NCBI GenBank assembly: GCA_035556555.1
Contig: DATMES010000063.1
Span: 1-64,000, forward strand
DNA length: 64,000 nucleotides
Reading direction: 5' to 3'
Source: Frankiaceae bacterium
Lineage (GTDB): Bacteria; Actinomycetota; Actinomycetes; BP-191
The notes beneath the pieces are model-generated. The model had not been told where the DNA came from. It searched no databases and saw only the letters and a list, made by a program, of their open reading frames with translations. A program made the translations under genes and the position numbers. How positions within the stretch are numbered: the first letter of the stretch is position 1; every line of letters starts with the position of its first letter. Below, one piece after another: positions 20,348-38,946 of this stretch.

Positions 20348-21046
20348 CTAAGGACGGCGGGCGCGGTGGATCGCGACGATGCCGCCGGTGCGGTCGCGCC
20401 ACGCGACGTTGCGCCAGCCGTTCTCCCCGATCCGCAGGGCGAGCGCGCGCTGGTCGGGCCAGGCCCTGATCGACTCGGCCAGGTAGACGTACGCCTCGGG
20501 GTTGCTGCTGACCTTCGTGGCGATCGCGGGCAGCGCGCGCATGAGGTAGTCGACGTACACCGCGCGGAACGGCGCCCACGTCGGGTGGCTGAACTCGCAC
20601 ACCACGAGCCGCCCGCCCGGCTTCGTGACGCGGGCCAGCTCGCGCAGGCCGGCGTCGAGGTCGTGCAGGTTGCGCAGCCCGAACGAGATCGTCACCGCGT
20701 CGAACGACGCGTCCGCGAACGGCAGCCGCAGCCCGTCGCCCGCGACGTACGAGACGCGCGGGTGCTCGTTGCGCCGCACGCCGACGCGCAGCATGCCGAG
20801 GCTGAAGTCGCACGCGACGACGTCCGCGCCGGAGGCCGCCAGCGCGACCGACGACGTGCCCGTGCCGGCGGCGAGGTCGAGCACGCGCTCCCCCGGCTTG
20901 GCGCCGACCGCGGCGGCCGTCGCGCGCCGCCACGAGCGGTCCTGGCCCAGGGAGAGGACGGCGTTGGTGAGGTCGTAGCGCGGCGCGACGTCGTCGAACA
21001 TCGCCGCCACGTCGTGCGGCTGCTTGCCCAGGTCGGCGCGGGTCAC
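20348..21046 (-). CDS. menG: Demethylmenaquinone methyltransferase (UbiE/MenG family)
   Basis: SAM-dependent C-methyltransferase (232 aa) for the last step of menaquinone synthesis. Motif I is [14 protein letters not shown] (about 56-69); [24 protein letters not shown] and [16 protein letters not shown] are UbiE signatures. The GTG start overlaps the upstream mqnX stop (GTGA), making it the last gene of the menaquinone transcription unit. Confidence 0.93.
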
Positions 21047-27400: not shown

Positions 27401-28261
<861 letters not shown>

Positions 28262-28328: not shown

Positions 28329-28398
28329 GTGATCTTGGTCCGAAACATGGCGCAACTGCTGGCTACCGTGCGATGGAGACGTGTTGTGGAGGTCGGTC

Positions 28399-29577
28399 AT
28401 GGCCACTCGTACTCGCACCCGGACGAGCGGGATCAGGCGCAAGAGACGGACGAGCGGAGACGTCTACGAGGTCCGCTTCCGCGACGCCGAAGGCATCCAG
28501 CGGTCGCGCACGTTCGCCTCGATGGACGAGGCGCGCACCTTCCAGAACGCGACCCTGGCCGACGTCCGCGAAGGCTCGTACGTCGCCCCTACCGCTGGCT
28601 TGGTGAAGTTCAAGGTCGTGGCAGAGGAATGGTTCGCAGGACAGGCGCACCTCAAGCGCCGGACGCAGATCACCTACCGCTCCGCGATTGACCACAACCT
28701 CGCGTCCCTGCACGACCGCCCGGTCGGGCGCATCACGTACGGCGAGGTCCAGGCGCTCGTGAACGCCATGACCGCCGCCGGTCGTCGCCCCTCGACTGTC
28801 CGCAACGTCCTCATGGTCTGCCGCCTGATCCTCGACGAGGCGATGCGCCGCAAGATGATCCGGACGAACCCATGCCGCGACGTGAAGCCGCCTCGACTGC
28901 GTCCGCGAGACAACGTGTTCCTGACCGTCGAGCAGGTCCAGGCGCTCGCGGAGGAACTGCCGCCGCCGCTCGACCTGCTGGTCCTCACCGCGGCTGGCTC
29001 CGGTCTGCGCGCCGGGGAGCTGAACGGACTGCGCGTCCGCGATGTCGAGCTGCTCCGCCGCCGCGTGAACGTCCGCCAGACCGTCGCGGACCTCGGCACC
29101 GAGCTGATCGTGGACACGCCGAAGAGCGCGGCCGGACGCCGGACGGTGCCGCTGTCTCCGGCTCTGTGCGACCTGCTCGCCGCGCACATCGGCCGCGCGG
29201 AACTCGACATGGACGACTTGATCTTCGGTGACAACGGCAGGCCGCGACGGCACAACGCCTTCTACACGCAGGTGTTCCAGCCCGCCGTCATCCGTGCCGG
29301 GCTGCCAGCCGAGACGCGGTTCCACGACCTACGACACACGTACGCATCGCTGATGATCGCGGCCGGCGTCAACCCGAAGCGGCTGTCCGTCTGGATGGGC
29401 CACACGACCGTCTCGCTCACGATGGACCGCTACGGCCACCTGTATGACGACGAGCCCGCTCCGGCCGTTCTGGACACCCTCTGTGCTCGCCCTTCCCGCT
29501 CCCTAGAACCCTCTACTCCTGCTGCTTCTGTCACTCCCCTCCCGACCCAACTCCGTACTGCCGTTCCGCCTGGCTGA
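28399..29577 (+). CDS. Tyrosine recombinase / integrase
   Basis: Site-specific integrase (392 aa). Order: an N-terminal arm-binding-like region (about 1-65, basic, with VYEVRFRDAEG), a SAM-like core-binding domain (about 68-155), and a catalytic domain with R204 (GSGLRAGE), K242, H309-x-x-R312 (HDLRHTYASL), H335 (MGHTT) and nucleophile Y345 (MDRYGHL). All catalytic residues are present. ATG at 28399 has GGAGG 8 nt upstream; an in-frame GTG at 28381 lacks a site. It is transcribed away from mqnA, as is usual for int beside its att site. Confidence 0.93.
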   Translation: MATRTRTRTSGIRRKRRTSGDVYEVRFRDAEGIQRSRTFASMDEARTFQNATLADVREGSYVAPTAGLVKFKVVAEEWFAGQAHLKRRTQITYRSAIDHNLASLHDRPVGRITYGEVQALVNAMTAAGRRPSTVRNVLMVCRLILDEAMRRKMIRTNPCRDVKPPRLRPRDNVFLTVEQVQALAEELPPPLDLLVLTAAGSGLRAGELNGLRVRDVELLRRRVNVRQTVADLGTELIVDTPKSAAGRRTVPLSPALCDLLAAHIGRAELDMDDLIFGDNGRPRRHNAFYTQVFQPAVIRAGLPAETRFHDLRHTYASLMIAAGVNPKRLSVWMGHTTVSLTMDRYGHLYDDEPAPAVLDTLCARPSRSLEPSTPAASVTPLPTQLRTAVPPG

Positions 29578-29607
29578 CCTCCCTCTCTTTCACCAAGTTC
29601 ATGTCGA

Positions 29608-29660
29608 GGGAGTGCTACTTGGTCGGGGGCGCGAAGCGGCTCCGACCAAGTAGCACTCCC
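29608..29660. repeat. Long hairpin 1 (19-bp perfect stem)
   Basis: The left arm 29608-29626 (GGGAGTGCTACTTGGTCGG) pairs perfectly with 29642-29660 around a 15-nt loop. The same design with compensating changes occurs at 31095-31139, with near-identical loop sequence (GGCGCGAAGCGG versus GGCGCGAGGCGG). Located just after int. Confidence 0.85.
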
Positions 29661-29738
29661 GACCCCGCGCTGAGCGCATCGCCGCAGGTCAGCCAGGCGG
29701 AACGGCTGGCGAAAGGATCGCGCCAGGGTGGTCCCTCG

Positions 29739-29772
29739 GGTGGTACCTCGGTGGCCCAACCGAGGAACCACC
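29739..29772. terminator. Hairpin between convergent int and whiB-like genes
   Basis: GGTGGTACCTCGGT (29739-29752) pairs with ACCGAGGAACCACC (29759-29772), one A-A mismatch, six-base loop. It ends two bases before the stop codon of the minus-strand gene and lies between convergent genes, so a bidirectional terminator is likely. There is no U-tract. Confidence 0.5.
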
Positions 29773-29774
29773 TC

Positions 29775-30263
29775 TCAAGACGCCTGACGCTCGCGGCACC
29801 GCGCTCGAAGCCGATTCACCGTGCGCCGCGTCACGCCAAGTCGGAGCCCGATCTGCCGCGCCGTCTCGCCGTCCTCCGTCCACCGCGCGACGGCGTTCAG
29901 AATCGCCTCCGACCGGCCGCGCCCCCACGTCGTGTCCGCGCTGACGACCTCCGCGAGCAGGAAGTCCTCGACCATCACGACCGGCTCTGGCTCGCCTGCC
30001 TCTTGTCGCCACCCCGCGCGCTCGGCGGCGGTCATGCCGCCCGCAATGCCGTCAACGGCGTTGGTCAGCGCCCACCGCCGACACTGCCGCCGCACCGGGC
30101 AGACGCCGCAGACCGCCAGCGCCTCGTCGGCGAGCTGTTCGTCGCCGAACAGCGCCGTCCGTCCCGCACACTTCGCGCGCCGTACCCATGACGAGTACGG
30201 CTCGTCTCCTTCGCGGCCGCTCGTGATCCGCGGCGCGCACACCCGTTCGTCCACCGCCGTCAT
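29775..30263 (-). CDS. WhiB-family iron-sulfur regulator with C-terminal HTH
   Basis: 162 aa. Four cluster cysteines C32, C52, C55 and C61 follow the WhiB pattern (one Cys, then CGVCPVRRQC), and GIAGGM (about 72-77) stands for the family's glycine turn. Unlike ordinary Wbl proteins of about 80-130 aa, it carries a C-terminal helix-turn-helix-like segment (ETARQIGLRLGVTRRTVNRL, about 132-151). It is on the element, 9 nt downstream of a small unknown gene, and may regulate element genes. ATG start preceded by GGTGG. Confidence 0.82.
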   Translation of the reverse strand: MTAVDERVCAPRITSGREGDEPYSSWVRRAKCAGRTALFGDEQLADEALAVCGVCPVRRQCRRWALTNAVDGIAGGMTAAERAGWRQEAGEPEPVVMVEDFLLAEVVSADTTWGRGRSEAILNAVARWTEDGETARQIGLRLGVTRRTVNRLRARCRERQAS

Positions 30264-30272
30264 GCGCGCCTC

Positions 30273-30599
30273 CTACGCCGCATCGATCGCGCTGGCGAGC
30301 CACGCCGCGTCGTACGTCGCGCAGGTGGACACGACGACATGCAGGCCGGCTAGGTCGTCGGCCGTGACGCCGAACGGCCCGAGTTCTCCGGCGACGACCG
30401 CGGCCCATGCCGTGACGGCGAGCGCGTCCCGGGCCGCGGTCAGCGAGTCACCGAACGCGTAGAGGCCAGCCAGCGGGCTCGCCGGGTCGTTGACCTCAGC
30501 GCGCCAGGCCCCGAGATTGCCCGGGTCGTCGTGAACCGCGACTACCCGCAGGACGAGATACGTACTGCTGCTCTCAGTGGTTAGAACCGGCTGCGACAT
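30273..30599 (-). CDS. Hypothetical protein, 108 aa
   Basis: No family recognised. The sequence is acidic and Ala-rich, with LVLRVVAVHDDP and GLYAFGDSLTAARDALA, and has no signal or membrane segment. The ATG at 30599 has GGAGG five bases upstream, which argues for a real gene. It is first of a two-gene unit with the WhiB-like gene and is divergent from the XRE regulator across 56 bp. Confidence 0.65.
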   Translation of the reverse strand: MSQPVLTTESSSTYLVLRVVAVHDDPGNLGAWRAEVNDPASPLAGLYAFGDSLTAARDALAVTAWAAVVAGELGPFGVTADDLAGLHVVVSTCATYDAAWLASAIDAA

Positions 30600-30655
30600 G
30601 CGTCCTCCAAGATCGCGAAAGGGAGCGGCCGATCGCGTCCTGCGGCGGCCGTAGG

Positions 30656-30910
30656 GTGAGCGCCGTGCAGCCAGGTACCGAGAACGACGGCGATCCGCCG
30701 CGCGTGCTGTTCGGTCGACGGCTGCGCGAGCTCCGCGAGTCCGCAGGGCTGCGCCAGGTCGACGTCGGCACGCGCGCCGGCGTGAGTACGGCGTACGTCT
30801 CCGAGCTGGAACGCGGTGGCCGCGGTCCCACGCTCGACGTGATCTACGCACTCGCGCGCGCACTCGGCGTACCCGTTGCCCGGCTCTTCCCGGACCCCGA
30901 CGACGACTGA
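30656..30910 (+). CDS. XRE-family helix-turn-helix regulator
   Basis: 84 aa with one Cro/CI-type HTH: LFGRRLRELRESAGLRQVDV, then GVSTAYVSELERGGRGPTLD. Typical of small repressors on integrative elements. GTG at 30656 or, nine bases later, a second GTG. It probably controls the divergent 108-aa/WhiB-like pair and perhaps element maintenance; that is inference. Confidence 0.8.
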   Translation: MSAVQPGTENDGDPPRVLFGRRLRELRESAGLRQVDVGTRAGVSTAYVSELERGGRGPTLDVIYALARALGVPVARLFPDPDDD

Positions 30911-31094
30911 CCTCGTTACACTCACAGTTGAATAATGACGGTCGCGCAACCCCTACCGACACCCCGATCAGAAATTTGTGGAAGAACCTCACCCCGGCCA
31001 GCAGCCTGTGGATACACCTCCAGATCCTTCGATCCCCTGCCTCCGCCGCAGCCCCGTTGACCCACTCCTCTCCTCCTTCTGTCCTGACGAGGGA
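30911..31094. other. Non-coding stretch, less GC-rich
   Basis: No convincing gene. It includes an AT-richer part (TTGAATAATGACGG, then GAAATTTGTGGAAG) and a TGTGGATAC word one base off a DnaA-box-like sequence. A single such word is not enough to call an origin. Confidence 0.4.
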
Positions 31095-31139
31095 GTGGGA
31101 CTAGGTCGGGGGCGCGAGGCGGTCCCGACCTAGTCCCAC
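31095..31139. repeat. Long hairpin 2 (16-bp perfect stem)
   Basis: GTGGGACTAGGTCGGG (31095-31110) pairs perfectly with 31124-31139 around a 13-nt loop. It is the partner of hairpin 1 at 29608: positions that differ between the two left arms are compensated in the right arms. Both are preceded by pyrimidine-rich DNA and GACGAGGG or GTCGAGGG, and followed by CCGCAGGTCAGC. Confidence 0.85.
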
Positions 31140-31240
31140 GACCGAGTCCCCCACGGCGCAAAGCCGCAGGTCAGCGGGGGTGCGGCGGAGGCTTCAAGAT
31201 CTTTTAGGGGTGCCCCGCAGGGTGCCTCGAACCTCGGTGA

Positions 31241-31276
31241 CCCTGCGAGGCACCCTGCGAGGCACCCTGCAAGGCA
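31241..31276 (+). repeat. Three 12-bp iteron-like tandem repeats
   Basis: CCCTGCGAGGCA occurs twice exactly (31241, 31253) and once with one change (31265). An inverted part-copy GGGTGCCTCG lies just upstream (31220-31229). The arrangement resembles iterons that bind a replication or regulatory protein. Confidence 0.6.
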
Positions 31277-31523
31277 TCCAAAGTCGACAGTTCAGAGCTC
31301 GCGCCGGCCGTTTCGAGACCGGCTGAGAGCGCCGCGGGCCGCGCGCTCGGCGGGCAGGCCGTGGCCTGCCCGCTTCACCTGACCGGAGGGGCCGCAGGGG
31401 CCCGCGGGTCGAGACCCGGCCGAAGGCCGGCCGCGAAGCGGCGCGAAGCGGTCTTGACGCGTGGGGGGGGCGGCCCCTCACCCTGCGCGGCCCGCGGCGC
31501 TCGACCGAGCACGCGGTTCTCTA
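31277..31523. other. Non-coding GC-rich segment with palindromes
   Basis: About 250 bp with no supportable gene. It holds an 11-bp perfect palindrome GCGGGCAGGCC-GT-GGCCTGCCCGC (31350-31373) and shorter ones (GGGGCCGCAGGGGCCC, GGCCGAAGGCCGGCC) and a run of eight G. It borders the 3' end of the methyltransferase gene and could be an origin, a transfer site or a recombination-scarred boundary. Confidence 0.4.
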
Positions 31524-32849
31524 CTAGCCCTTGAGAAACACGACGCTCTCACGCAAGAACGCGCTGTCTACGCTTCGACGTCGCGGATACCGCGCGACCG
31601 CAATGCGCTGCACGCTTAGACCGGCGACCTCCGCAACCTGTGCAATTATGATATCCGCAGCCACGACAAATGCCGCTTCCCGTCCGCCGTGAGCCGAGTT
31701 TCCTACGACATATACCACATCTGCTCCTGGTCGAAGCGTCCGTCGCACGGCACGCAGAGTGCGGTACATGTCCACGGCGTAACCGCGAAACATCCGACGG
31801 CGACCTTCGAAGTAGCGATCCGCTGGAAGTGCGTCGACAACTGGATCGATGCAACCCGCCACGCGCCGATTCTCCTCCTCCGACAGCTCTGGCGCAGGCA
31901 TCGGGTCAACTCGCAGAATGCTCGGGTGGCTGTAGGCCGTCCGCAGGCGCTGGCTTGTGAACTCCTCTCCAGACGTGATGAAACCAAGCAGCCAGTTTTC
32001 TAGTTTATATACTTCGGTGTAGTCAATGTTGTTCGGATATGGTGGCGAAAACAATGCAAGGTCACACGTCCAGTCTGGCGCAATATCGTCGAGCGTCCTC
32101 GCATCGCCGCGGTGTACGTCACCATCAACCGCGATACCGGTCGTCGGGAGGTCTGCCTCAATCTGCGCTACCTTCGCTCGCCACGCTTCAATCACGGGCG
32201 GCCGTGTCCGCTTCTCGCTATACCGCAATGTACGGCCGTCGCGTCGCAGGTTGCAAATTGGCTCAATGGTCGCCCCCAAAGCAACGCGCAGAAGCGCAAC
32301 TGCCTCCGCCGCGGACCCTCGTCGCTCTGTTGCATCAATTGCAAGCCTGAGCCGAACGAGCTGGGCAACGTCGTCTCGCTCAAAGTAGTCGCTATTCTGA
32401 AACGTTGATAACGCCGGAAGCTCTACACTGTCCTGACTTGCAAGCGCACGTGAAGCTACTCGTTCTGCCACCTCGTTGAGCCGCTTTGGAGGATTACGGA
32501 GCGCCGCTATCTTCGCACTTGCGACTAAATGCAGAAAGCCGTTGCACTCGACCCCGGCGACATTAGCCGCAGTGAACGACCCGTCTCGAACCGCCGCTGC
32601 GGCCGACGCGGCAGTCGTCCCAGAACCCGCATACGGGTCCAAAACCCGCAACTCCTCTGCCTCTGCGAGCCCGAGATCCTTTAAGACCCGGGGCAGCAGC
32701 CGGTGCGAGAATGCCTCCTTGACATGGAACCATCGATGCACCGGTTCGTCAGTGTTCCCGGTCGGGACAACCAAATCGGCATAGTCTGGCGCTTCTTCAA
32801 CCAAGAAAGGCGACTGGACGTCGCGGTAGTGGTCTTCCAGACTCGTCAC
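31524..32849 (-). CDS. SPPY-type DNA methyltransferase of the four-gene operon
   Basis: 441 aa. SAM-binding motif I is DPYAGSGTTA (71-80); catalytic motif IV is SPPYPNN (268-274). SPPY is typical of N4-cytosine and some N6-adenine DNA methyltransferases. Motif I precedes motif IV. About 190 residues between the motifs could hold the recognition region. The GTG start overlaps the nuclease stop (GTGA), so it is the last gene of a four-gene coupled unit. GC content is clearly lower than the chromosome. It could protect host DNA from the upstream nuclease/ATPase. Confidence 0.82.
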   Translation of the reverse strand: MTSLEDHYRDVQSPFLVEEAPDYADLVVPTGNTDEPVHRWFHVKEAFSHRLLPRVLKDLGLAEAEELRVLDPYAGSGTTAASAAAAVRDGSFTAANVAGVECNGFLHLVASAKIAALRNPPKRLNEVAERVASRALASQDSVELPALSTFQNSDYFERDDVAQLVRLRLAIDATERRGSAAEAVALLRVALGATIEPICNLRRDGRTLRYSEKRTRPPVIEAWRAKVAQIEADLPTTGIAVDGDVHRGDARTLDDIAPDWTCDLALFSPPYPNNIDYTEVYKLENWLLGFITSGEEFTSQRLRTAYSHPSILRVDPMPAPELSEEENRRVAGCIDPVVDALPADRYFEGRRRMFRGYAVDMYRTLRAVRRTLRPGADVVYVVGNSAHGGREAAFVVAADIIIAQVAEVAGLSVQRIAVARYPRRRSVDSAFLRESVVFLKG

Positions 32850-33970
32850 GAGGCGTCCTCATTACGTTCGACATCTAATGCCCCCGTGGCTAATTGTTGG
32901 TTGCGCCATGCTTTTGCGTTGCGGAACAGATGCCAATGTCGAAGTTCAATGCCGACACGCGATGCTAGCGCCTCGACGGGCGCAAAGCACGCGGAGCCGG
33001 CGTAGTCATCGCGCATGTCGAAGCAGCACAGTGCAGCCGCGCGAGCCTTCGATTCGGTGCGGTATGCAGCGGCTTGCACCACCCCGTCCTCGATCGCCTG
33101 CGCCGTCCTCGCGGCCCCTACACGCCTCCCGGTGTGTGAGCGTGACCGCAGCACCTTCAGTTCAAGAATCGCGTGAGTGACGGTCGTTCCCACATCACCG
33201 ACAACCGGCTCGTCGATGACGATGTCGATCCGACCCGCCGGGAGGGGCCTCTCAATATCGACATCGCACCAGGAGAACCGCCCCTGCAGCGCAATGAGCA
33301 CAACACTCGCGAGAACCCGTTCGGCGTGCTCAACGGGCGTGCCCGTCCGTGCGTCAGCCCAGACTTTGAGATCGGTGGGATGCGTCGCGGGCGTCACCAG
33401 TCGCTTGCGATATACCCCCTCTACAACCCGAAGTATCTCATCGAGCGGGATCTGCGCATTAGCCGGATGAAGTCGGTCCCACTTGTCGGGGCGTGACAGT
33501 CCATCGGGATAGAAGCGAAGTTCAATCTCGTCTTCATCGTCCACAATGACGGCTGGAACAGAGCCAAGCCCTAGATCATCAGTAACGAACCTGAACAGAT
33601 CGTCATCCGACTCGAACTCGCCGGGACACCAACGCGCGAGGCTACCGACGTGGTTCACGAACCAAATCCGTCCACCGAGTGGTTCGCGTGCTCGATCCAG
33701 CATCGTCACCCGCTTGCATGCGTCGGCGACAATATCGGGCACCTCAGCCGGGTACAACAAGAACACACTGAGTCCGCGGCTACCACGGGCCGCAGCGCCA
33801 GCTTCGCGTGCGCAATACTTGCCAACAAGTCGAGCCATCGCGGCCCGGAACCGATCCACGCGATCCAAGCCGGCATCGGATCCCACGCCGGCAAATTCGG
33901 AGGCGGTGGCGAGCAGCTCGGCATCGTCCCAACCCGTTGATCCGACACCTCTCTTCGTCGCGTTACTCAC
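32846..33970 (-). CDS. PD-(D/E)XK nuclease-like protein of the four-gene operon
   Basis: 374 aa. The C-terminal part (about 205-325) reads as a RecB-like restriction fold: a helix with E214, D249 in AGRIDIVID, E270-x-K272 in AILELKVL, then Q299 and Y303 (QxxxY). Nuclease assignment is from this motif pattern. The N-terminal 200 residues are not recognised. GTG start overlaps the small middle gene by 8 nt. By analogy with Lamassu/ABC-3C systems it would be the effector. Confidence 0.68.
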   Translation of the reverse strand: MSNATKRGVGSTGWDDAELLATASEFAGVGSDAGLDRVDRFRAAMARLVGKYCAREAGAAARGSRGLSVFLLYPAEVPDIVADACKRVTMLDRAREPLGGRIWFVNHVGSLARWCPGEFESDDDLFRFVTDDLGLGSVPAVIVDDEDEIELRFYPDGLSRPDKWDRLHPANAQIPLDEILRVVEGVYRKRLVTPATHPTDLKVWADARTGTPVEHAERVLASVVLIALQGRFSWCDVDIERPLPAGRIDIVIDEPVVGDVGTTVTHAILELKVLRSRSHTGRRVGAARTAQAIEDGVVQAAAYRTESKARAAALCCFDMRDDYAGSACFAPVEALASRVGIELRHWHLFRNAKAWRNQQLATGALDVERNEDAS

Positions 33971-34610
33971 GTTCGAGCCTCATGAACAAGTGCCGGACGT
34001 AGAGATGGAGCATGGCCGCCGGCGAGACGGACGTCTCCTGGCCCGTCAGGGCGGCGAACCTCCGCGCAACGTCGGCCGTTGCGTTGCCCTGCTCGTCCGC
34101 CAGGTCGATGACACCCCCTTCGCCGACGACGGGGTCGCCATACGCGGCATCGACGCTTGTGGCGTCCGCGATCCCCTCCCGCCCTAGTGCCGACGCGGCA
34201 AATACAACTTCTCGTACGAACTCCAACTCGCGGGTGCGATTCTCGTATTGGCGGACCGCGTTAAGGATCGGGTCTGCATATTCTCGGTGCAACGAGAAAC
34301 GCGCGTCGACCTGCCATTGAGCTCCCGCTTGGATGTAGGTCGCGCCGGCGACGGCAATCACACCAAGCCCCACGAGTTGATCGATGTCACGTTGCAGACT
34401 TGGAAAGTAGGGGCGCCGGCCCTTCAAGATCTGCGCGTCTACCAGCGGGAGACCCCACACGGGTGCTAGCGCATCAGACAGATAGGCAAGAGTGTGCAAC
34501 TCCAGGGTTGCGAGCGGCGTCAGGCCGACCTCGTCAGCACCGTCGAGAAGTCCGATCACTCGCAGTTGGCGTTCAATGCCTAGGCGAAGCGGCGCAATAC
34601 GTGTCTTCAC
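33963..34610 (-). CDS. Small middle-component-like protein of the four-gene operon
   Basis: 215 aa, no enzymatic motif. The segment from about 35 to 85, with LELHTLAYLSDALAPVW, PYFPSLQRDIDQLVGLGVI, looks like the winged-helix middle components that accompany SMC-like ATPases in ABC-three-component systems (LmuC of Lamassu). That match is from memory of family style, not a search. Located between ATPase and nuclease, coupled to both (GTGA with the ATPase stop). Confidence 0.5.
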   Translation of the reverse strand: MKTRIAPLRLGIERQLRVIGLLDGADEVGLTPLATLELHTLAYLSDALAPVWGLPLVDAQILKGRRPYFPSLQRDIDQLVGLGVIAVAGATYIQAGAQWQVDARFSLHREYADPILNAVRQYENRTRELEFVREVVFAASALGREGIADATSVDAAYGDPVVGEGGVIDLADEQGNATADVARRFAALTGQETSVSPAAMLHLYVRHLFMRLERE

Positions 34611-36610
34611 GGGGAAGGAACCTGCTTCGCCGCCCTACGGCCGAACATGCGATCGAACAGATCCCGGTACTCATCGCGCAACTCTCGCAGCGCGGCAGTA
34701 GGCGTTGCGATCGTCAGCAGATCTACTACGCGTGGACTCTTGGGTGAAGTGATGCGGGCCGCTCGGAGCATCTCGGGGACAAGTTGGCCATCAACAAGGT
34801 TGGACGTGGTTACTAGCCTGTTGTTCATTCCGGTGTCCGCGAAGCGAACAAGGACTGCCGCCGCTCTATGCGCGAATACTGCATCAAGGGATGCTTCTGG
34901 TGCGTCAACAACCATTGAACCCGACGCCTCATAACCAGCAACGTCCATCAGTGCCATTCGGAACGCTAGGTCGACAAACTCTCGCTGACTCTCAGACACC
35001 TGGTCGGCCGAGGATCGTCGGACGGGGGTCGCGAAGTCCGACCCAGTCATTTCCAGCTCGAACGCCGGGAATTCGAATGTTCGCCCAGTTTGGCCGACAG
35101 TCGTCTTGTGCGGAGCCCAACGGAGCTCGCTCTGCTCGAACAGGAAGCCTTCAGCAAACCGCTTGAACACGGAGATTATTTTGTCGCGCTCTCGCGCGAT
35201 CGTCGCAATATCGCGTCGCACTACTTGATCGAATTTGGTTCTTCGCTCGTCTAACTCGCGCTGCAGACCCGCCAGATGTGCGCGTAGGGTTGTCACTTGT
35301 TGCGACTGCGCCCGAAGCGTGCGCTCGTCTGGCGGTAGTTTGCGTATTAGTTCGTTTAGGGTCGCTCGATTAGTCGCGATCGAACTTCTTAAACGCTGGA
35401 GTTCCGTGAGGGCCGCGTCATATTCCTTCTCCGCTTGTTCCCGCTCCTCGGACGCAGCCTCTATCCGGATGTCAAGCGAATCAACTCTCGCTGCTTGCGC
35501 TGCGATCTTTTTCTCAGTTGCGCGTTGCTGAGGCGTTTGGTTCTGTACCGCCGAGTCGCACACCGCACACCGCGACGACCGGATCCGCTCCTCGATCTCG
35601 ACAACAAAATCAGGCACTTCAGTGCCGCAGGTCTGACACACGCCTGTAGACAGCAAACGTCCGAACAGATATCTAAATGCCTCGTCATAGGAAGGAAACG
35701 CGGCTTCAATACGGCTCAACTGTAACGTTTCAAGCCGCCGGAATTCTGACTCCCTTTCCTGTTCGGCTGTCAACATTAAGAGGCGCGCCTGCTGTCGCGC
35801 CGCTTCGAGTGCCGGCAGTCGCTCTTCGAGGACAGACAGTTGGTTGTCGTCACGGGACAACGCCGCCTCGGTATCCTCGATCTGCCGCGGTACGTCGGTG
35901 CCGCGTGTCGCCTTAGCCTTACCGGTCCTTTCCTCCTTCTCCTCCTTGTTTAGTGCGTTTCGGAGATTCCTGACACGGCTATCCAGCTCTAGCACCTCGC
36001 GTTCGTGCCGAGCCCACGCTGATGCAACCTTTGTCGGTAAGAGAAGAAGCCGAAGAATCTGACGCTGCGCCGTTGGATCCCAGATGAGCGAATGACGGTC
36101 TTCGAAGTAGAAGACTAGGAATCGGAGGATGAGAATGAAGTCCCCAAAAGTAGGGAGCTCGGTTAGATCCAGGATTATGCGCTGATAGCTGTCCTCGGTG
36201 CCTTGGCGCGACCGACCGTTCACCTTGAGGTCGAGTAGAGTCAAATCGTGAAGCGAACGCGTTATCTCGACCTTGTCCGTGCCGAAGGACACCACGAGCG
36301 TCGCCTGCGCGTCGGCGGCGTCGTCATTTACTCGTGCCGCGAATATCCTTCGGTCCCAGCGTTGGAGGCGCGTCGCCTCAAGGCTTCTGCTACCGAGGGA
36401 TGACGCTCCTGGAAGCCCCGGTATCTCATAAGGACCGGTCATCATTCGATAGATCATCGTTATGAGCGTGGACTTCCCGAGGCCATTGGCTCCGAGCACG
36501 AGCGTAAGACCGGGTTTGAACTCGACCCCGAGCCCAGCCCTGGCAGCGGTGCCCGGAAACATGCCGAAGCCATGCACGTCGAGGCGCTCCAAGATTGGGA
36601 AGCGGATCAC
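34607..36610 (-). CDS. SMC/Rad50-like ATPase of the four-gene operon
   Basis: About 667 aa. Walker A GANGLGKST (40-48); long charged coiled coils (about 200-300 and 360-480) flanking a zinc-hook-like insert with two CxxC pairs (C325/C328, C348/C351); a degenerate ABC signature VSESQREFVDLAF (538-550); Walker B MVVDAPEASLD (566-576). This is the layout of LmuB/ABC-3C ATPases rather than true SMC. GTG at 36610 starts the N-terminal strand; the frame stays open to an ATG at 36673, so the start is uncertain. First gene of the operon. Confidence 0.8.
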   Translation of the reverse strand: MIRFPILERLDVHGFGMFPGTAARAGLGVEFKPGLTLVLGANGLGKSTLITMIYRMMTGPYEIPGLPGASSLGSRSLEATRLQRWDRRIFAARVNDDAADAQATLVVSFGTDKVEITRSLHDLTLLDLKVNGRSRQGTEDSYQRIILDLTELPTFGDFILILRFLVFYFEDRHSLIWDPTAQRQILRLLLLPTKVASAWARHEREVLELDSRVRNLRNALNKEEKEERTGKAKATRGTDVPRQIEDTEAALSRDDNQLSVLEERLPALEAARQQARLLMLTAEQERESEFRRLETLQLSRIEAAFPSYDEAFRYLFGRLLSTGVCQTCGTEVPDFVVEIEERIRSSRCAVCDSAVQNQTPQQRATEKKIAAQAARVDSLDIRIEAASEEREQAEKEYDAALTELQRLRSSIATNRATLNELIRKLPPDERTLRAQSQQVTTLRAHLAGLQRELDERRTKFDQVVRRDIATIARERDKIISVFKRFAEGFLFEQSELRWAPHKTTVGQTGRTFEFPAFELEMTGSDFATPVRRSSADQVSESQREFVDLAFRMALMDVAGYEASGSMVVDAPEASLDAVFAHRAAAVLVRFADTGMNNRLVTTSNLVDGQLVPEMLRAARITSPKSPRVVDLLTIATPTAALRELRDEYRDLFDRMFGRRAAKQVPSP

Positions 36611-36848
36611 GACGTTCTGCCTAGAGCGGCGCGCGAGCCGTCCGCGATACTGACACATGTGGCTTGCCGGCACATCTGTAGCCGCAGGCGCGAGGGCACC
36701 TCGTGCAACTGTTCCCCCTGACGGGTGGCGCTCGGACGTGGTCGATCAATTCTGACATCTTGGTGGCCAGCGGACGGGGACCGCGAGCGGCTCGATACTC
36801 GCGTTTCGCTTCGTCGTGCGAGTGACGCTCTGAGGCGATGCGCCCAGG
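36611..36848. other. Gap between AbiE pair and four-gene operon
   Basis: About 240 bp that should hold the promoter of the four-gene operon (minus strand). No clear -35/-10 pair was found. If the ATPase starts at 36673 the gap shrinks to 175 bp. Confidence 0.4.
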
Positions 36849-37814
36849 TCAGAGCAGCACAGCCCGCTCTGTGACCCGGCGGCAGATCTCCTCCCACGTA
36901 GGGGGCTGGGCCGGCCCGAAGTAGAGATCGGGGATCGTTGCCTCGTATGCGGCGCGTAGCCGACGCGACGCGTCGCTCGTGACGTCGAACGCGAGACTTG
37001 ATCCGAAACCATCCGGAGGGCGGACGCTGACGGCCTCCTCGCGACCGAAGTAGGTGCGGTCAATGTCCTCGATGCTGGCGATGACCTGCTCGAACTCCTC
37101 ACGGTCGCTCAGCAGATCCAGCACGCGGCTGTCGCCGAGGAGTTGGAAGACGTCATAGAAGTGACGACCGCTGCGGCGGTCGGGACGTCGCGCACTGTCG
37201 GCCGCGAGTTGCTGCCCGACCGCATTGATGTGGACCAGCTTCTCCAGCAGCGTGCGTCCGGGATGCAGCACCACCACCTCGAAGGGTTCGAGATCTGCGA
37301 ACTCACGAAGATCCGTGCCGGCCGCGGCGAGGACGTCCCCAAGTAGACAGCCGACTGCAGCCGACTCGTTCGGATGGTGGCCGCCCCTAACTCCCATCTC
37401 TAGCAAGACGCTCGTCTGGATCAGCGCAGTCGGCTCCCGTGTGGCGGGATAGGTGACGCTGTACGAGCGGTGCCGACCGGTCTCGGAGCCGCCGACCGGC
37501 GATGCCGCGCCACCGACGCCGGCCGCGGCCGCGGCGCCCATCGCCTTCATGAGTTTGTCCGTCGTGCCGCGACCGCGGTCGCCCGCGATGACGAGCACGT
37601 CGATGTCCTCGGAGAACCGCTCCACGATTCGGTACGCCTTCGACAGGCTCGTGCCGCCCTTGAAGATGAAGTCGTTCCGAAAGTCCTGCGCCAGCACACG
37701 GAGGACTTCGCTGACCCAGTAGTCCTTCTCAACTGCCGTCGCGCTGATCCCGAGGCGCTCGGCAGCAGCGTCGAGGGTGGGGGCGAACTCGTCCGAGTCA
37801 CGGAACAGAGGCAT
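36849..37814 (-). CDS. abiEii: AbiEii-family nucleotidyltransferase toxin
   Basis: 321 aa. The nucleotidyltransferase signature FKGGTSLSKAYRIVERFSED (about 50-69) with DIDVLV supplies the GS...DxD metal site. AbiEii/MenT-type toxins transfer nucleotides to RNA and block growth. YDVFQLL and a C-terminal helical part follow the family. Its ATG stands 3 nt after the abiEi stop, the usual antitoxin-toxin order. Known role of AbiE is abortive phage resistance or stabilising mobile DNA. Confidence 0.88.
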   Translation of the reverse strand: MPLFRDSDEFAPTLDAAAERLGISATAVEKDYWVSEVLRVLAQDFRNDFIFKGGTSLSKAYRIVERFSEDIDVLVIAGDRGRGTTDKLMKAMGAAAAAGVGGAASPVGGSETGRHRSYSVTYPATREPTALIQTSVLLEMGVRGGHHPNESAAVGCLLGDVLAAAGTDLREFADLEPFEVVVLHPGRTLLEKLVHINAVGQQLAADSARRPDRRSGRHFYDVFQLLGDSRVLDLLSDREEFEQVIASIEDIDRTYFGREEAVSVRPPDGFGSSLAFDVTSDASRRLRAAYEATIPDLYFGPAQPPTWEEICRRVTERAVLL

Positions 37815-37817
37815 GGA

Positions 37818-38492
37818 TCAACCCGCCAACGAGTGGTCGTTGCGAACCGAACCGCTCCGCGCGGGCGGCACCGAGTTGGCGACAGCCCATCGACCCAAGG
37901 CGAGTAGTTGCCGCAGCCGCTCGCGAACGCGCGGCGGCTCAGTCACGGCCGCGCGGACCAGCCGATCGAAGCGAAGCACACCGGCATCCGCGAGACGAGC
38001 GATCCGATCGACGGCTTCGGCAGACGGCACTTCGACCAGGCCTTCCCAATCGCGGAGCACTTCGAGGAGTGCGACCTCAGCAGCACGGAGCCGCTCATCA
38101 CGGCGCTTCACGCTAGCGGCACGACTGACAACGTTGACGGACCCCGAGTTGCGCGGTGCGCGCCCTGGCACGGCGATCGTCTCCCACCGTGGCACTTGCG
38201 TCGACAGGCCAAGCAGCAGCGCCGCGCTCCAGCCAGCGGGTCCGATGCCGGGACCGCCGACGATCTCCTCCGCAAGGCGAGCCGCCGGCGGTGGAGCCAT
38301 GCCGAGCCGGGTGGGTGTTCCCCGCCAGTAGAGCCCTCGCCTCACCCGACGAAGCTCTCCGGCGCGAGCAAGGCGGGACAGTGCCTGCGCGACCGCGTCC
38401 GGAGAACCGTCGAAGTCCTCCGGACGCCAGAACCGGTCGCGCGAGCGGACGACCCGCTTACGCACCTCCGGCGCGACGCTGCTGACACTCAT
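37818..38492 (-). CDS. abiEi: AbiEi-family antitoxin
   Basis: 224 aa with an N-terminal winged helix (FWRPEDFDGSPDAVAQALSR, LARAGELRRVRRGLYWRG, about 20-60) that in the family binds the promoter, followed by a C-terminal antitoxin domain (PAGWSAALLLGLSTQVP). ATG at 38492. It is the first gene of the pair and a perfect inverted repeat lies about 80 bp upstream, a plausible autoregulation site. Confidence 0.82.
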   Translation of the reverse strand: MSVSSVAPEVRKRVVRSRDRFWRPEDFDGSPDAVAQALSRLARAGELRRVRRGLYWRGTPTRLGMAPPPAARLAEEIVGGPGIGPAGWSAALLLGLSTQVPRWETIAVPGRAPRNSGSVNVVSRAASVKRRDERLRAAEVALLEVLRDWEGLVEVPSAEAVDRIARLADAGVLRFDRLVRAAVTEPPRVRERLRQLLALGRWAVANSVPPARSGSVRNDHSLAG

Positions 38493-38932: not shown

Positions 38933-38946
38933 GGTCAGAGGCTAGA
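38889..38946. repeat. Right junction block of the integrated element
   Basis: 58-nt counterpart of 28185-28261. It contains the end of the reductase-like gene, the mqnA start and the VGHIQFL codons. The 14-nt GGTCAGAGGCTAGA at 38933-38946 is exact in both blocks. Confidence 0.75.

Follow-up and report, generated by a model that had tools for sequence, protein, structure and literature searches.

Single-strand origins (sso) are known in the integrative and conjugative element (ICE) ICEBs1 (sso1) and have been inferred in several other ICEs (PMC4595007). Hairpin promoters of phage N4 are active on single-stranded or supercoiled DNA and, according to a review, require the loop G and A together with the closing pair (PMC4496689); GNA mini-hairpins are exceptionally stable in DNA (PMC4686876). 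For actinobacterial ICEs of the T4SS type, no published structured element like the one described below was found in the open-access literature, and a literature search for the motif returned only unrelated papers. To our knowledge, the route from the transferred single strand to double-stranded DNA has not been established in these ICEs.

The window (the whole 64,000-nucleotide stretch analysed) carries an island with two long hairpins. Each forms the inner part of one copy of a nested, strongly structured, non-coding element of ~145 nt, here called element A, whose second copy runs on into another structured element, B.

Element A on the window island

The island is bounded by a 14-bp direct repeat, GGTCAGAGGCTAGA. 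Its cargo is defence-like (31524-38492) and comprises a methyltransferase, a possible PD-(D/E)XK nuclease, an SMC-like ATPase and an AbiE pair; no conjugation genes were recognised on the island. ARAGORN placed a tRNA-Gly at 20685-20755 inside a ubiE-like gene, which is probably a false call. The features surrounding the hairpins are as follows.

28248-28261, + strand: left direct repeat GGTCAGAGGCTAGA, probable attL
28381-29577, + strand: tyrosine integrase of the island
29775-30263, - strand: WhiB-like regulator
30273-30599, - strand: conserved hypothetical gene of these islands, family F1
30656-30910, + strand: XRE/HTH regulator
30907-30936, + strand: sigma70-like promoter match 5' of copy 2, without conservation in the syntenic island of G002
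38933-38946, + strand: right direct repeat GGTCAGAGGCTAGA, probable attR

From 5' to 3', element A consists of one arm of a ~20-bp outer helix, a pyrimidine-rich tract, CGAGGGAGTG (invariant at the start of the inner helix), the inner helix itself (16-19 bp), and then, after a short linker, the 3' arm of the outer helix, which includes CCGCAGGTCAGC. The parts of the two copies are listed below.

29561-29705, + strand: core of copy 1 (outer helix, pyrimidine tract, inner hairpin, CCGCAGGTCAGC arm), scored at 147 bits by model R1, itself partly built from copy 1
29560-29580, + strand: outer helix 5' arm of copy 1, pairing with 29686-29706 (21/21)
29608-29660, + strand: inner hairpin of copy 1, perfect 19 bp, with GCGAAGC in the loop at 29631-29637
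29682-29693, + strand: CCGCAGGTCAGC within the 3' outer arm of copy 1
29739-29772, + strand: third hairpin 3' of copy 1, from folding
31044-31187, + strand: core of copy 2, 133 bits with model R1, partly built from copy 2
31039-31062, + strand: outer helix 5' arm of copy 2, pairing with 31169-31192 (22/24)
31095-31139, + strand: inner hairpin of copy 2, perfect 16 bp
31164-31175, + strand: CCGCAGGTCAGC within the 3' outer arm of copy 2
31208-31267, + strand: third hairpin 3' of copy 2, with a perfect stem at 31216-31259

The original prediction had described perfect stems of 19 and 16 bp sharing a loop and differing in their arms by matched changes, and placed them on either side of the int-distal regulators. 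The stems were recovered exactly as claimed, as were the loop and the compensating differences (CT/GG vs AG/CC and T/A vs A/T), and WhiB, DUF and XRE genes lie between the hairpins. It had also reported CCGCAGGTCAGC after both hairpins. The sequence is present at both places, but not as a trailing motif, a reading rejected because CCGCAGGTCAGC pairs within the outer helix as part of its 3' arm (21/21 in copy 1, 22/24 in copy 2).

When the entire 64 kb was searched for short-loop hairpins with a perfect stem of 14 bp or longer, the scan returned only the two inner hairpins and 31216-31259, which is part of the copy 2 block, and locally shuffled windows (n=5) gave none. Against dinucleotide shuffles, the two regions fold with z = -7.9 (copy 1) and -9.9 (copy 2). 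A protein-coding function of A was rejected, as the MSREWHLVGGAE frame shifts with loop length and has stops in copy 2 and in G097-C129 (read by eye).

Covariation, relatives and the companion element B

In an alignment of seven full copies of A (46 pairs), 97.8% of the cells were paired, compared with at most 46% when partners were slid. Thirty-three cells were doubly changed versus 11.0 ± 2.5 after shuffling, a count reached by 0/500 shuffles, and 13/46 pairs carried double changes. Compensation was also seen between orthologues: in copy 1, CT/AG of the window genome corresponds to GC/GC in G002, and in copy 2, T-A corresponds to A-T in G001. The step from covariation to selection for structure is therefore supported beyond the two original copies, and the proposed search of related islands recovered the same element with fold-keeping changes between copies. 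Uncompensated stem decay in homologues had been named as evidence to the contrary. Some decay was found: G001 has a truncated copy (C100), the outer stem of copy 1 in G002 is mismatched at two bases, and G001 has an apparent insertion. The last apparently splits copy 2 of A in its loop (L105 and L106 ends; C63, C30) and has IS-like inverted ends; GGCGCGAAGCGGTTC appears to be repeated on either side of it, as inferred from contigs that end there. Palindrome correction by template switching could mimic compensation, and the own-type pairing of a third strand, the pyrimidine tract, speaks against it, though not decisively.

Pairing of this tract with the inner hairpin's left arm is possible in every A copy (-13 to -19 kcal/mol); tracts of the copy 2 type fit arms of the copy 2 type best (-16.6 vs about -9 to -11). 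Two hairpins that exclude each other would be consistent with a folding switch made of either RNA or DNA, on a post hoc comparison of few independent types.

An initial pattern scan of the genome collection gave 20 loci, with one contig matching the G001 congener. With the covariance model, A was found in 5/394 class genomes: the window genome, both searched congeners, and two genomes from one genus of another family. Genomes with A carry few copies, about 1-5 each, all of them on islands, both conjugative and non-conjugative (the window island); within the window genome, A recurs on related ICE-like elements. On two conjugative elements (C11, G002-C23), A lies between a TrbL/VirB6-like gene and a pilin gene, antisense to both. 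Contig ends leave one side of this arrangement visible in G097-C18, G002-C28 and G002-C95, the TrbL gene has been lost from the neighbourhood in G159-C21, and in C12 A lies between a Replic_Relax gene and xis-int. The element was not found in the plasmid, phage and viral collections searched, and plain and permissive covariance-model searches of Rfam 15 gave only chance-level, miRNA-like matches. Element A is a previously uncatalogued element and represents a new family.

A sequence related to CCGCAGGTCAGC, AAARCCGCAGGTCAG, is also common elsewhere in G000, G001, G002 and G097, far above the reversed control (for G000, 16:0 when one mismatch was tolerated). Many of these sites adjoin the ends of integrase genes or the 3' ends of tRNAs; in all three genomes of the genus, one is located upstream of mraZ.

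The element into which copy 2 continues has the following position.

31324-31506, + strand: element B, a multibranch fold that includes three mini-hairpins with GNA triloops and is conserved along with copy 2

The block 31039-31508 is kept in the syntenic G002 island, where copy 2 is 94% and B 97% identical, compared with lower values for the flanking genes (int 83%, WhiB 87%, DUF 83%, XRE 77%, partial length). The 128 bases 5' of copy 2 have no match in that island. Similarity between the two islands ends at the cargo junction, with different genes beyond. On G002 C23, too, the cargo is defence-like (cargo loci L098, L127) and encodes a DEAD helicase and ThiF/JAB proteins. Covariation was also found in B, where 17/53 pairs were doubly changed.

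Genomes from several other families of the class contain strong matches to element B; weaker ones in GC-rich genomes are doubtful. This second structured family ranges in Actinomycetes well beyond A (L164, L165, L168, L169 and others) and often flanks cargo as direct copies. In G131, two identical B copies 10.6 kb apart enclose a large RHS-like gene. Other copies adjoin apparent IS110-type transposase genes (L131 3-528, L145 319-1657) or, on a Streptosporangium plasmid (L171), have IS3 genes and a group II intron nearby. Such folded sites may serve as insertion targets.

The folded strand and its possible roles

G-U wobbles exceeded A-C wobbles by 14:3 cells in A and 22:3 in B, which marks the + strand, as read in the original prediction, as the folded one. 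With DNA energies, the complement folded less well than this strand in 8/8 A and 11/11 B copies; with RNA energies, the same held for 6/8 and 11/11, respectively. These data favour folding of a single strand over a double-stranded, protein-bound palindrome. On 7/7 islands carrying more than one copy, every A and B has a single orientation, with the following sets of copies.

Window: A, A, B
C12: A, B, B'
G002-C23: A, B, B'
G002-C95: A, B
G159-C21: B, A, B
G097-C129: A, B
G097-C72: B, B

Counted as copies beyond the first in an island, 11/11 were co-oriented, which is an upper bound on the evidence given shared ancestry. The XRE gene is inverted relative to A/B in C129 and shares their strand in 5/6 islands, so co-orientation may partly reflect an inherited backbone order.

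GNA loops, the type stable in DNA, were enriched among triloop hairpins, with 53/134 in B and 12/40 in A versus 82/1423 in the rest of the window. Apical loops are often C-GNA-G, and in B the N varies among homologous sites. The heptamer GCGNAGC favoured the + over the - strand by 14:2 in A and 33:1 in B (background 65:42); loops of A vary, with GCGAGGC in window copy 2. Both the orientation and the GNA tests were devised after seeing the data and the copies are related and non-independent, which makes these statistics indicative only. Taken together, the evidence from strand, orientation and loops favours single-stranded DNA over RNA, although GNA triloops and G-U wobbles also suit RNA.

Our leading but tentative interpretation is that A, with its partner B, is a strand-specific site of ICEs that folds in single-stranded DNA, similar to a single-strand origin, which it would resemble in its several stems, its dependence on orientation, its intergenic position and its place on elements that move as ssDNA. 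Element DNA would become single-stranded as the strand transferred in conjugation or displaced in rolling-circle copying, and the + strand would then quickly adopt the nested-hairpin fold. Recognition of the folded A by a protein of the host or the element (RNA polymerase, primase or an SSB-linked factor) could start complementary-strand synthesis or ssDNA-templated transcription, as at single-strand origins. We infer that the active form is DNA, on the transferred strand, and that it primes replication. The lack of a conserved promoter 5' of copy 2, despite the high identity of copy 2 and B to G002, was counted in favour of such a site. Among the proteins scanned, no relaxase domain was found and no nic site or oriT was identified; a Replic_Relax protein is encoded near A in C12. 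Two A copies and B on one small island exceed the needs of an sso. A wider proposal, which we regard as possible but doubtful, is that A and B are two orientation-locked ssDNA families built around GNA triloops and acting jointly, as origins or promoters, on the strand that actinobacterial T4SS-type ICEs transfer, with B perhaps a widespread actinomycete ssDNA module.

The main rival, conceivable though we lean away from it, is a structured + strand ncRNA ended by the third hairpin, which would act in trans (e.g. through the CCUCC-like pyrimidine tract as an anti-Shine-Dalgarno) or switch between two hairpins. Strand-specific folding with G-U wobbles agrees with it, as does a third hairpin after both window copies and the other inspected copies, and the tract-arm pairing in every copy, with its own-type preference, is what a bistable switch would give. 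A promoter-like match does precede copy 2, but it is not conserved in the orthologous G002 island, and the third hairpin lacks a U-tract. A transcript would moreover run antisense inside the T4SS gene block of the ICEs, its biogenesis gives no reason for A and B always to share a strand, and uninterrupted helices of ~20 bp are unusual in regulatory RNA. The convergent genes around the window copies (int/WhiB; XRE/methyltransferase) would instead suit a bidirectional transcription terminator or an insulator between element modules. This is improbable: neither strand of A has a T-tract or an intrinsic terminator match, A lies between divergent genes in C12, and on the T4SS elements it would block the second of the co-directional VirB6-like and pilin genes. 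Sequence conservation and the extra helices also go beyond what termination needs.

Two further explanations concern DNA movement. Direct copies flank the regulator cassette in the window and cargo in C12, G002-C23 and G097-C72, and cargo of the window and G002 islands diverges exactly past the conserved block, as might be expected of attC-like or origin-of-transfer-like recombination sites that exchange regulator or cargo modules. The attC core (GTTRRRY / RYYYAAC) is however missing in nearly all copies, with a single RYYYAAC match in one, no integron integrase was recognised and no relaxase was found near A, and we consider recombination sites very unlikely. Least likely of all, A and B would be mobile but non-autonomous repeats of the MITE/REPIN kind, structured so as to promote their own spread. 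The presence of several copies in differing contexts of one genome, inverted-repeat ends, and the far wider range of B, sometimes repeated around cargo, are in line with this; yet the terminal arms vary from copy to copy in a compensated manner, which a transposase site would not permit, no target-site duplication was seen by eye, and the A copies are few and confined to islands.

Should A and B prove to be folded ssDNA sites, second-strand synthesis or ssDNA-templated expression would gain a testable candidate. The sites could also serve as a marker by which such elements are found, and would be a natural case of loops that are particularly stable in DNA.

Element A among described folded sites

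Like A, the sso of rolling-circle plasmids and sso1 of ICEBs1 (PMC4595007) comprise several stem-loops over a similar length (~150-250 nt) and reside on elements that transfer as ssDNA. They are orientation-specific, to which the shared strand of A and B copies on each island may correspond, and the multi-stem-loop fold on one DNA strand by which an sso is judged was found in A. Unlike them, the candidate site A is actinobacterial and GC-rich, shares no sequence likeness and occurs in several copies per island. The ssoA type has a CS-6 box, TAGCGT/A. No resemblance to this box, of the only sso subtype compared, was seen in A.

Promoters of the phage N4 virion RNA polymerase (PMC4496689) are DNA hairpins, in which a loop G and A and a C:G closing pair are needed, but they are short and read by a phage enzyme, whereas A is long, nested and located on ICEs, where no such polymerase was seen. 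Integron attC sites, which are folded single-strand sites in direct orientation around cassettes, resemble the role proposed for A; they differ in architecture, in a consensus missing from nearly all A copies, and in their IntI, which was not found with A. STAXI (PMC2864571) is a repeated pseudoknot with UUCG loops, in contrast to the nested hairpins and GNA-type loops of A, which has no Rfam match. Both are repeated structured motifs near integrases or DNA-handling genes, and an ssDNA function has been proposed for STAXI, which by analogy makes it the closest earlier example of a structured repeat in the vicinity of integrases that is suspected to act as single-stranded DNA.
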